In this document: one piece after another, positions 7,163 to 60,180 of the stretch
How positions within the stretch are numbered: the first letter of the stretch is position 1
How the letters are laid out: the number at the start of each line of letters is the position of its first letter
From: Flavobacterium lipolyticum
GTDB lineage: Bacteria; Bacteroidota; Bacteroidia; Flavobacteriales; Flavobacteriaceae
Direction of reading: 5' to 3'
Length of the DNA stretch: 64,000 nucleotides
Assembly (NCBI RefSeq): GCF_020905335.1
Contig: NZ_JAJJMN010000001.1
Span: 1,736,001 to 1,800,000, forward strand
Notes under the pieces: generated by a model
The model's input: only the letters and a program-made list of their open reading frames with translations
Told to the model about the DNA's origin: nothing
Database searches by the model: none
Program-made: the position numbers and the translations under genes

Positions 7163-7193
7163 ATTTTGTATTATTGCTTCTATAATACAAAAT
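7163..7193 (+). promoter_or_regulatory. perfect hairpin just upstream of the Y1 transposase start
   Basis: ATTTTGTATTAT (7163-7174) and ATAATACAAAAT (7182-7193) are perfect inverted copies separated by 7 nt. The hairpin ends 7 nt before the ATG at 7201, so it covers where a ribosome-binding site would sit. It could be a translational silencer or the left-end recognition hairpin of an IS200-like element (inference). Confidence 0.6.
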
Positions 7194-7200
7194 ACGCAAA

Positions 7201-7662
7201 ATGGCAAACACCTATCATCAAGTTTATATACAGGCCGTTTTTGCTGTCAAATACAGAGAAGCACTTATTAATAGCGAATGGAAATCGAAATTATTAAGTA
7301 TTCTTGGTCATCTGATAAACGAAACAGGATGCAAAACCATAATTGTAAATGGTACCGAAAATCACGTTCATTGCTTTCTGGGTTTAAAACCAAATGTTTC
7401 AATTTCTGAACTAATGAAAACCATAAAAGCAAAATCATCAAAATATATCAATGACCATAAGCTGACAAAATCCAGATTCGAATGGCAGGAAGGTTACGGT
7501 GTTTTCTCCTACAGCCAATCACATGTTGATGCGGTATATAAATATATTCAAAATCAGGAAGAACACCACAAAAAGCAATCTTTCAAAGAAGAGTATTTTA
7601 CATTTTTAGAGAGATTTCAGGTTTCTTATGATGAAAAATATCTATTTAATGATCTTATATGA
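7201..7662 (+). CDS. Y1 HUH transposase (IS200/RAYT-like), linked to a REP array
   Basis: 153 residues of a Y1_Tnp domain. The HUH metal motif is His55-Val-His57 (ENHVHCFLGL) and the nucleophilic tyrosine is probably Tyr115 in YIQNQEEHH, with Gln119 four residues later. That Y-x3-Q spacing is characteristic of IS200/IS605 TnpA. The enzyme class cleaves and rejoins single-stranded DNA at hairpin ends. No TnpB or accessory gene is present. The gene is followed immediately by about 1 kb of palindromic repeats, and the stop codon lies inside the first repeat. Such genes can be domesticated REP-associated transposases and not mobile IS elements. A second, broken relative lies at 59717-60180 (N-termini MANTYHQ and MASTYSQ). 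Confidence 0.88.
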   Translation: MANTYHQVYIQAVFAVKYREALINSEWKSKLLSILGHLINETGCKTIIVNGTENHVHCFLGLKPNVSISELMKTIKAKSSKYINDHKLTKSRFEWQEGYGVFSYSQSHVDAVYKYIQNQEEHHKKQSFKEEYFTFLERFQVSYDEKYLFNDLI

Positions 7663-8715
7663 ACCGATCCGAAGTCTCGTGATCAAAGATTGTAAAATTC
7701 CGTAGGAATGGGGTATTTTGTAGCAACGGATTTCAATCCGTTGATCGATAAAACGACCATAATTCAAAAAGTTCCATAGGAACGAAACATATTAAATGCG
7801 ATCTTTTGCAAAACCTAAAAATATGAACCGATCCGATGGATCTTTAAACCTCGTTGTCGAATATTTTTTAAACCGGATTAAAATCCGGCCCTACAATATT
7901 GGTCGAGCCGAAGGCACTTTCTTAAAGATTACAAATTCCGTAGGAATGACCTCTTTTGTAGCAACGGATTTTAATCCGTTGATCAATAAAAAAACCATAA
8001 TTCAAAAAGTTCCATAGGAACGAAGCATATTAAAATGCGATCTTTTGCAAAATCTAAAAATATAAACCGATCTGATGGATCTTTAAACCTCGTTGTCGAA
8101 TATTTTTAAACCGGATTAAAATCCGGCCCTACAATATTGGTCGAGCCGAAGGTTCTTTCTTAAAGATTACAAATTCCGTAGGAATGACCTCTTTTGTAGC
8201 AACGGATTTTAATCCGTTGATTAATAAAAACAACCATAATTCAAAAAGTTCCATAGAAATGAAACATATTAAAATGCGATTTTTTACAAAACCTAAAAAT
8301 ATAAACCGATCTGATGGATCTTTAAATCCCCTTATCGAATATTTTTAAACCGGATTAAAATCCGGCCCTACAATATTGGTCGAGCCGAAGGCACTTTCTT
8401 AAAAATTACAAATTCCGTAGGAATGACCTCTTTTGTAGCAACGGATTTTAATCCGTTGATCAATGAAAAAACCATAATTCAAAAAGTTCCATAGGAACGA
8501 AACATATTAAATGCGATCTTTCGCAAAACCTAAAAATATAAACCGATCCGATGGATCTTTAAACCCCATTGTCGAATATTTTTAAACCGGATTAAAATCC
8601 GGCCCTACAATATTGGTCGAGCCGAAGGCACTTTCTTAAAAATTAAAAATTCCGTAGGAATGACCTCTTTTGTAGCAACGGATTTTAATCCGTTGATCAA
8701 TAAAAAAACCATATT
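7657..8715. repeat. BIME-like tandem array of REP palindromes, period about 238 bp
   Basis: This stretch without a gene holds a repeated unit. The palindrome AACGGATT-TT/TC-AATCCGTT occurs at 7725, 7963, 8201, 8440 and 8677 (spacing 238, 238, 239, 237), each preceded by GTAG plus one base. A second palindrome, CCGGATT-AA-AATCCGG, occurs at 7873, 8111, 8350 and 8587 and is followed by CC-CTAC, so on the - strand it too is preceded by GTAG. Each unit therefore contains two opposed REP-like hairpins. Each also has 13-nt palindromes: GTTCC-ATA-GGAAC (7771, 8009, a degenerate copy at 8248, 8486), ATTCC-GTA-GGAAT and GATCC-GAT-GGATC. Copies are nearly identical, indicating recent amplification. Confidence 0.92.
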
Positions 8716-12989: not shown

Positions 12990-13064
12990 ACTACAAATTT
13001 AAAGAGGAAAGGCACAAAATGCGTCGAAAATAATCATAAAAATAACCCCTTAAAATTCATTCCA

Positions 13065-13140
13065 AATCTCAAATTCCAAATTCCAAATTCCAAATTTCAC
13101 ATTTTACATTCCACATCTCACATTTCACATATAACAATTC
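13065..13140. repeat. AAATTCCAAATTCC / CACATTTCACATT word repeats
   Basis: Low-complexity spacer made of AAATTCC-type words (about 13068-13096) that grade into CACATTTCACATTCC-type words. It lies between the divergent dinB and phosphoesterase genes. It resembles the other word-repeat spacers in this window in design but not in sequence. Confidence 0.65.
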
Positions 13141-13197
13141 AAATCACACCCTTTGTAAAGATTCTCAAGTTAATAGTCTCAAACGAATCCTTTTCGT

Positions 13198-45893: not shown

Positions 45894-46275
45894 AGGTTTA
45901 TTATTCGCTATGGATAAAGATTTTTTTAGATCTCCATAAATGGGCCGAGCCTATGGCTCTCAATTCTGTGGGAATTTATCGTTTGGACGGATTAAAATCC
46001 GTCCCTACAAAATTAAAGAACGAGCCTATGGCTCTCTTTTAATCATATCTTCAGAAAATTTCAGAGAAATGATAAATGATGTCGCAATAGATTTTAATTC
46101 GATAATCTGGAAACACACCATACAATTAAAGTTCCAAAGGAACGGAACATATTGTAGCAACGGATTTTAATCCGTTGACCCAAAAAATGCAAAAAAACAA
46201 TATAGTTCCATCGGAACCAGGCCTTTGCTTCAAACCATTTCTCTACAAAATAACCGTAACGATAAATAGTATCCT
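45894..46275. repeat. solo REP/BIME-like cluster without a transposase
   Basis: 382-bp stretch without a real gene. It holds GAGCC-TAT-GGCTC twice (45947, 46022), ATTCT-GTG-GGAAT (45963), GGACGGATT-AA-AATCCGTCC (45985-46004, followed by CTAC), GTTCC-AAA-GGAAC (46131) followed by GGAACATATT-GTAG, then AACGGATT-TT-AATCCGTT (46158-46175), and GTTCC-ATC-GGAAC (about 46205). The same elements as in the 7.7-8.7 kb array, in single, diverged copies. Confidence 0.85.
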
Positions 46276-59716: not shown

Positions 59717-60180
59717 ATGGCAAGCACCTATTCTCAATTATACATTCATATTGTTTTCACCGTTAAAGGCCGGCAAAATCTGATTTCCAAAAATTGGAAA
59801 GACGAACTCTATAAATACATGACCGGTATTATTAGCAATAAAGGTCAAAACTAATTGCTATTAACGGAATGCCGGATCATATTCATATCTTGATTGGATT
59901 AAAACCAGATAAGTCGATATCAGATTTAGTAAGAGATATTAAAGCAAATTCTTCAAAATTCATAAATGACAGGAAGTGGGTAAATGGAAAATTTGAATGG
60001 CAAGCCGGCTTTGGAGCCTTTTCGTACAGTCATTCCCATTTGACAAATGTTATACGATACATTGAAAATCAAGAAGAGCATCACAAAACAAAAACATTCA
60101 AAGAGGAATATATCGGTTTTTTGAAATCGTTTAACGTTGATTTTAAAAACGAATATTTGTTTGACGATGTTAACGAATAA
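59717..60180 (+). pseudogene. second Y1 HUH transposase (IS200/RAYT-like), frameshifted
   Basis: ATG 59717 (MASTYSQLYIHIVF) opens 45 codons and stops at 59852 after SNKGQN. From there the other frame continues LIAINGMPDHIHILIGLKPD... to TAA at 60180. Adding one A to the A-run 59847-59850 restores a 154-residue protein with HIH, FSYSHSHL, YIENQEEHH and a KEEY tail, clearly related to the protein at 7201. A one-base deletion is therefore the simplest reading. It could be a sequencing error in a short homopolymer. Different palindromes flank this copy. Confidence 0.8.

Follow-up and report, generated by a model that had tools for sequence, protein, structure and literature searches.

An IS200-like Y1 transposase of Flavobacterium lipolyticum and its own family of GTAG-tagged hairpins: a probable REP-transposase system

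The window analysed here, a stretch of 64,000 nucleotides from Flavobacterium lipolyticum (assembly GCF_020905335.1, contig NZ_JAJJMN010000001.1, positions 1,736,001 to 1,800,000), carries on its + strand a short Y1/HuH transposase gene (7201-7662), followed directly by a tandem array of opposed, GTAG-tagged hairpins (7695-8713). Together they probably form a transposase system of repetitive extragenic palindromes (REPs), of the kind called a REPtron, built on a class-1 enzyme that is IS200-like and has the motif Y-x3-Q. The best reading of the sequences is that the enzyme would work like a REP-associated tyrosine transposase (RAYT) with its REPs, without being a RAYT by sequence. Each enzyme clade has hairpin families of its own, hairpin number tracks the gene, units seen at a site in one genome can be missing from the orthologous site in another, and the unit of clade A, to which the window protein belongs, is bipartite.

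The gene encodes 153 amino acids and matches the Pfam family Y1_Tnp at 4.4e-28. Its product passes the NCBIfam cut-off for transpos_IS200 (75.6 vs 55) and fails that for REP_Tyr_transpos (24.8 bits vs 80). It has the HVH motif (H55, H57), W95-Q96, Tyr115, Gln119 and H122-H123, and all catalytic residues are intact. An earlier note made from the DNA letters had recognised an IS200-type Y1 enzyme from HVH, Tyr115 and Gln119, and both Pfam and the NCBIfam IS200 model agree; the contents of the feature it drew from 7163 to 8715 also hold, while its start lies 38 bases before the ATG at 7201. In place of the class-2 motif Y-x3-N-P, for which the protein has no match, it carries Y115-x3-Q119 within YIQNQEEHH. 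The sequence Y-x3-Q-x2-HH is the signature of TnpA(Y1) subclass 1.2 of Quentin et al. 2018 (PMC6006769), and by this signature the window protein belongs to that subclass. Table 1 of the same paper, which its authors call a first characterization, gives the subclass the REP entry ‘no’, a reported property that is contradicted by the hairpins beside clade-A genes described below.

Across 29 aligned relatives Y115, Q119, H122, H123 and the WQ pair are invariant, and all 29 match transpos_IS200 with an E-value of 0.001 or lower; at this level 26 of them match the REP model as well. The residue before HVH is N54 in the window protein and D in at least 90% of relatives, the subclass form being DH[IV]H. 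The 5.77-Mb host genome holds four subclass-1.2 copies: besides the window gene there are relatives with 52%, 50% (this one broken) and 37% identity. One intact copy of the window type exists, in line with the low and divergent copy number of the subclass, and the gene has no near-identical multicopy element of the insertion sequence (IS) kind. Among the best 80 of 332 named records, the closest proteins are those of Flavobacterium sp. UGB4466 and F. tructae. The nearest solved structures by sequence are chains of the IS608 transposase (2a6m, 2vhg), followed by 2xm3, which we take to be ISDra2.

The array has a period of 239 bp, 4.3 copies and 94% matches. Five hairpins GTAGCAACGGATTTYAATCCGTTG lie on the + strand at 7720-7743 (with a TC loop), 7958-7981, 8196-8219, 8435-8458 and 8672-8695, and four opposed hairpins GTAGGGCCGGATTTTAATCCGG on the - strand at 7873-7894, 8111-8132, 8350-8371 and 8587-8608, each read downward from its higher coordinate. 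Copies of one type follow each other at spacings of 237-239, exactly as the earlier note had counted and spaced them when it described two opposed REPs per unit. No GTAG hairpin was found upstream of the window gene; the local hairpins lie downstream only. Both types fit the form of REPs and of bacterial interspersed mosaic elements (BIMEs), in which a stem of 7-20 bp, closed by a 2-5 nt loop, is preceded at 0-2 nt on its 5' side by GTAG or GTGG: their stems are 9 and 7 bp, their feet 0 and 2 nt and their loops 2 nt. Folding of single-stranded DNA from two array units produced both the mini-hairpin introduced next and the GTAG hairpin (8173-8219 and 8412-8458; z -4.1 and -4.5). The two other folds were 8352-8400 on the - strand, cut two bases short, without the expected hairpin, and 8237-8262, which was unstructured. 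An Rfam search gave a single chance match only.

Two features were absent from the earlier note, a mini-hairpin before each tag and dispersed copies elsewhere in the genome. All five + strand GTAG tags are preceded by the mini-hairpin ATTCCGTAGGAAT, at 7697-7709, 7935-7947, 8173-8185, 8412-8424 and 8649-8661, with its 3' end exactly 10 nt away. The clade-A unit thus consists of a 5-bp mini-hairpin with a 3-nt loop, a 10-nt spacer ending in ATnTT, the tag GTAR and the second hairpin. Near clade-A genes the mini-hairpin was found in 209 of 257 units, compared with 3 after shuffling, and it ends exactly 10 nt before GTAR in 192 of the 257; among dispersed units of the window genome it is present in 25/27, at exactly 10 nt in 20. 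When hairpins at the named clade-A loci described below were oriented by their loop and the tag was ignored, GTAG (171) or GTAA (85) stood at the expected place in 256/316. The comparison with gammaproteobacterial BIMEs made in the earlier note rests on likeness, and the bipartite unit falls outside the REP rule as quoted in PMC6006769.

The arrangement recurs with variations in other clades of the subclass. Counted on both strands and with no shuffled control, a mini-hairpin is followed by GTAG at 10 nt in 77/365 cases in clade A, by GTAG at 9 nt in 21/156 in B1 and 16/68 in B2, and by ATAG at 9 nt in 36/160 in B3; in the same both-strand count, clades C and D did not show a mini-hairpin at a fixed distance from [GA]TAG. 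A mini-hairpin with [GA]TAG at 9-10 nt resembles the right end of an IS200-type element, going by the spacing that we assume for IS608.

Evidence for a partnership comes from the surroundings of related genes. In the best 80 of 332 clade-A loci from the genome collection (named records, among them ones from Flavobacterium, Mucilaginibacter, Algoriphagus, Arcicella, Chitinophagaceae and Prolixibacteraceae), 76 have a GTA[AG]-tagged hairpin no more than 700 bp from the gene, and hairpin density is 2.44 per kb near the gene vs 0.11 per kb beyond 1.5 kb. The strict unit occurs in 75 of the 80 loci and in 27 of 30 genomic contexts, loci being placed in one context when they share a neighbouring open reading frame (ORF) that is at least 40% identical, and the number of contexts being possibly inflated by short contigs; shared ancestry of a single locus was rejected as the cause on this ground. 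The hairpins are also oriented with respect to the gene: the nearest one upstream is on the + strand in 60/69 loci and the nearest one downstream on the - strand in 58/65, and hairpins stand on both sides of the gene in 57 of 77 loci, the nearest two forming a +/- pair in 45 of the 57.

Flanking hairpins follow the clade of the enzyme and not the genome. Sixty further subclass-1.2 loci were taken from the same genomes, and their flanking hairpins differ by clade, the clades being read by eye from one FastTree. When cores of hairpins up to 700 bp from the gene are compared, one or more are shared by 437 of 620 pairs of loci from the same clade and different genomes, by 1 of 56 from different clades in the same genome and by 160 of 3152 that differ in both; none of 2000 label permutations reached the same-clade value. 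Two or more hairpins of one core were found at 77 of 89 gene loci and at 3 of 39 same-genome control loci, which are mostly coding and so favour the gene loci. These counts cover 89 of 92 loci (L083, L088 and L113 had no gene by the motif script), or 88 in the pair test, from which L081 was excluded, and 39 of 40 control regions, one of which did not exist; the repeated-core and tag-distance counts use coarse groups that merge some clades of the pair test. The clade specificity of flanking hairpins also led us to reject a generic effect of intergenic DNA. In a search of the phylum, 29 loci all carried the signature and 20 a repeated core; 8 of them are in Flavobacterium, one being the window gene itself, and outside the genus the figure is 14/21, with no control loci there. 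Of 395 genomes sampled across the phylum, 165 have a match to a profile of the subclass proteins; outside the genus the hairpin check covers those 21 loci and such of the 80 named loci as are not from Flavobacterium.

Two loci from other clades are described here for their own sake. Directly 5' of a clade-B1 gene (L002, upstream 1065-1490) stand tandem ATTCCGTCAGGAAT mini-hairpins, several of them followed by TAAATATYGGTAG. A clade-C gene of the window genome (L004, G000:C1:2669704-2670144) has the palindromes GCCCTGAAAGGGC, GGGCTGAAAGCCC and TAGTGC-NNN-GCACTA on both sides, one of the three types being present downstream in variant form only.

The same partnership is seen when whole genomes are compared. 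We searched 199 Flavobacterium genomes for the window protein and for the hairpin pattern GTAGNNNNGGATTNNAATCC; some relative of the protein occurs in 87 and the hairpins in 54. Clade A, defined by near-full-length relatives at 63% identity or more, is present in 31 genomes, and hairpins were found in 29 of these vs 25 of the 168 without the gene (Fisher 9e-18). The earlier note had proposed this count and had held that its idea of an IS200-type enzyme serving REPs would fail if hairpins were as common without the transposase; they are far rarer there, and the hairpins within 700 bp of 76 of the 80 named genes likewise favour the idea. The two clade-A genomes without GTAGNNNNGGATTNNAATCC both have a related hairpin beyond the reach of the pattern, the gene of one (G112) being flanked by GTAA-tagged hairpins and that of the other (G160) having GGACT cores. 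Clade D, at 31-33% identity to the window protein, has ATAG-tagged hairpins of different sequence, and these occur in 17/17 genomes with a clade-D gene vs 21/182 without (Fisher 2e-14). Among genomes of 5 Mb or more, hairpin counts are tied to the clade's own gene (Mann-Whitney U, 4e-5 for A and 3e-4 for D), and the crossed gene-hairpin pairs are not associated (0.80 and 0.16). Genome size as the sole cause was rejected on these grounds, the full set being less clear. Three genomes with a broken clade-A copy were left out of the first gene-hairpin table and of both large-genome tables for clade-A hairpins and are kept in the 199-genome figures. As a separate observation, one genome without a clade-D gene (G057) holds 49 ATAG hairpins of the clade-D type; a relative at C1:93405, 45% identical to a flawed query, may own them.

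Within the window genome the family is dispersed. With as many as 3 mismatches allowed, the pattern GTAGNAACGGATTNNAATCCGTT has 81 matches in 5.77 Mb vs 0 for the reversed control, some of them single palindromes read on both strands, and the stricter GTAGNNNNGGATTNNAATCC has 36 vs 0. All 25 dispersed copies that were fetched lie outside long ORFs, compared with 37% of positions drawn at random from those loci. The copies are thus many and extragenic, as expected of REPs and BIMEs, yet the 36 strict matches are below the >100 per genome given as usual for REPs (PMC2817692). One opposed pair lies in the window itself, at 45986-46008 (-) and 46154-46177 (+), the latter preceded by the mini-hairpin GTTCCAAAGGAAC. 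Elsewhere on the chromosome, an array with a 71-bp period (G000:C1:3650236-3651392) contains 16 sequences of the + hairpin type on the - strand, tagged ATAG or ATGG and not GTAG.

Both the array and the dispersed units differ between strains. The array has 9 hairpins in the window genome, 7 in UGB4466 and 4 in F. tructae. The earlier note had taken the near-identical units as a sign of recent amplification; array length does vary, and since the nearest strain, UGB4466, lacks exactly one 239-bp unit, this looks like ordinary gain and loss of tandem units, which would not by itself amount to transposition. Thirteen dispersed loci were compared with F. tructae (G159), of which 11 had a usable partner, with unit numbers here and in F. 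tructae of 2/0, 3/0 and 1/0; 5/2, 3/1 and 3/1; 2/2 at three loci; and 1/2 at two. Units are therefore absent from F. tructae at 3 of the 11 orthologous loci. At one (L034/L290), a 163-base stretch with a single bipartite unit corresponds to 4 bases in F. tructae, a clean unit-free site; at a second (L026/L291), about 620 bases carrying three units are absent; and at L021/L298 the sequences between the flanks differ between the two genomes.

Several points weigh against a REP-transposase system. The 25 genomes that carry hairpins without a clade-A gene include some with many (17 in G183, 16 in G136 and 10 in G075); a broken clade-A copy is present in two of the 25 (G066 and G121), and such hairpins could be relics or belong to another enzyme. 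The full set of 199 genomes also shows an association for the crossed pairs, clade-A gene with clade-D hairpins (12/31 vs 26/168, Fisher 0.005) and clade-D gene with clade-A hairpins (11/17 vs 43/182, Fisher 8e-4), so part of the signal comes from genome size or shared ancestry. In the 35 genomes of 5 Mb or more, with broken-A ones dropped, presence or absence of clade A gives 15/16 vs 14/19, which is not significant (Fisher 0.19), and all association statistics ignore kinship, having no correction for the tree. At the loci themselves, 39 of the 80 named ones share one genomic context and are not independent, with about 30 contexts in total; 4 of the 80 have no hairpins, 20 of 77, the window included, have them on one side only, and 12 of 89 lack a repeated core, with the mostly coding controls flattering the remainder. 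Finally, 3 of the 11 loci compared with F. tructae are equal and 2 are richer in F. tructae, and each difference may be a gain or a loss in either genome.

An explanation that would dispense with such a system is that the gene and its flanking hairpins are an ordinary IS200-type insertion sequence, the scattered hairpins being decayed ends or small non-autonomous derivatives. In its favour are the match of the window protein and of all 29 aligned relatives to the transpos_IS200 model and the likeness of the mini-hairpin and its [GA]TAG to an IS200-type right end, at a spacing that we presume. Against it, the genome has one intact copy of the window type, and its relatives there, at 37-52% identity, are not the near-identical copies expected of an IS; 39 of the 80 named genes sit in a single context. 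Moreover, the bracketing hairpins are mostly inverted, unlike those of the IS200/IS605 family, described as having no terminal inverted repeats (PMC2817692). We consider this explanation very unlikely.

It is also very unlikely that the hairpins are terminators, mRNA stabilisers or other intergenic elements of the host, with the enzyme a bystander or an old IS. The extragenic position of all 25 tested copies would suit such elements, and intergenic DNA would be expected to be richer in hairpins than the mostly coding control loci. However, terminators would not be expected to have a clade-specific sequence with a fixed tag, an exact 10-nt distance to a mini-hairpin (192 of the 257 units near genes), inverted pairs that bracket many of the genes and a number tied to the gene.

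That the hairpins belong to a class-2 RAYT of the same genomes, the Y-x3-Q gene merely standing among them, is highly improbable, and a class-2 owner was rejected on locality and co-occurrence: the window genome does have two class-2 genes above the REP_Tyr_transpos cut-off, relatives of one occur in 92 of 199 genomes and their presence is weakly associated with the hairpins (31/92 vs 23/107, Fisher 0.057), but both genes (Y-x3-NP) lack a GTAG hairpin of stem 7 or more in the fetched stretches of about 3.2 kb, one of them (L040) has a palindrome of its own, CGAGCGTCCCGCTCG, the hairpins occur in 13/13 genomes with clade A alone, 15/74 with class 2 alone, 16/18 with both and 10/94 with neither, and they follow the subclass-1.2 clade rather than the genome (437/620 vs 1/56). 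These two results, the class-2 stretches free of GTAG hairpins and the failure of class-2 presence to explain the hairpins, again favour the idea of the earlier note. The locus L040 (G000:C1:3624518-3625063; YIHQNP) is flanked by CGAGCGTCCCGCTCG four times, once on the opposite strand, and by a variant, and these fit the atypical structures reported for subclass 2.6 by Quentin et al. (PMC6006769).

A REP-transposase system on an IS200-like enzyme shares features with several known families. With subclass 1.2 as described in PMC6006769 the window protein has in common Y-x3-Q-x2-HH, WQ, a length of about 150 residues, low copy number and an occurrence in Bacteroidetes; it differs in its NHVH (DH[IV]H in the subclass) and in the clade-specific hairpins beside most clade-A genes examined, where the table of that paper lists none. 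Like class-2 RAYTs (TnpAREP), known from REPs, BIMEs, REP doublets forming hairpins (REPINs) and REPtrons, it pairs a gene with GTAG hairpins, often as an inverted pair, with many extragenic copies, opposed pairs and one enzyme family per hairpin family. Unlike them, it has Q and not N-P after the tyrosine and fails the NCBI REP model, its tags include GTAA, and ATAG in clades B3 and D, and in clade A the unit has two parts, the mini-hairpin standing 10 nt 5' of the tag. With the IS200/IS605 family (class 1.1; IS608, ISDra2) it shares the catalytic core, the nearest solved structures by sequence and the logic of a hairpin with a tetranucleotide; it differs in having WQ instead of W[TS], an extra HH, a C-terminal tail, mostly inverted flanking hairpins and no near-identical multicopy element.

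In open-licence full-text literature, judged mostly from listings, no link between subclass 1.2 and REPs was found. The GTAG REP superfamily of Di Nocera et al. 2013 (PMC3733652) likewise has GTAG at one end of a short palindrome, and the main text of that paper names Bacteroidetes once, for CGTC repeats, and Flavobacter- never. RepRanger (PMC12306157) has two Flavobacterium genomes in its table, and the words transposase and RAYT are absent from the text as consulted. The automatic REP search of 2018 is described for TnpAREP-encoding genomes and, for short hairpins, takes at least three G/C in the first four stem bases (PMC6006769); the + hairpin of the array, with CAAC, has 2 and fails, while the - hairpin, with CCGG, has 4 and passes. 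This rule and that scope are a possible reason for the ‘no REP’ entry.

The way such a system might operate can be sketched from work on TnpAREP, in which GTAG guides cleavage at a CT beside the hairpin (PMC8266576), and from IS608. A dimer of the enzyme would bind the hairpins in single-stranded DNA, such as the lagging-strand template, and the GTAR tag would position the catalytic tyrosine, so that the strand is cut and rejoined at the edge of the unit. Units could thereby be copied or moved into new intergenic sites, while the gene would mostly stay put. The 239-bp array may have grown from one unit by ordinary tandem recombination or slippage.

We also put forward, as a tentative and rather doubtful extension, that the Bacteroidota Y-x3-Q enzymes might form a second REP-transposase system with an origin separate from that of class-2 RAYTs. 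Its core unit would be right-end-like, a 5-bp mini-hairpin followed after 9-10 nt by [GA]TAG in clades A, B1, B2 and B3, and in clade A this would be fused to a second, GTAG-footed and left-end-like hairpin. Each REP would then be the kept or copied junction of right and left ends of an ancestral single-strand circle, and the system a visible intermediate between an insertion sequence and a domesticated REP system.

The window contains a second subclass-1.2 gene about 52 kb from the first, at 59717-60171 on the + strand. It has internal stops and is followed by mini-palindromes of its own (CTCC-TTC-GGAG, GTCCC-AAC-GGGAC and CCCC-GAA-GGGG), and from its sequence it is apparently a decaying copy of another clade's system. 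Short tandem repeats of 7 and 14 bp (ATTCCAA / CATTTCA type) lie at 13058-13149.

REP elements and RAYTs are a leading case of a domesticated bacterial transposase. Here, an enzyme of a subgroup catalogued without partner repeats adjoins hairpin repeats of its own in many of the examined bacteria. Such a REP-like partnership, on the IS200 side of the family, would provide a second system in which to test how an IS200-like enzyme became a REP enzyme, and with dozens of enzyme-hairpin pairs, varied in their tags (GTAG, GTAA and ATAG) and stems, the rules of recognition may be readable by comparison. If true, a function would also be at hand for proteins to which NCBI's model gives the plain name of IS200/IS605 transposase.

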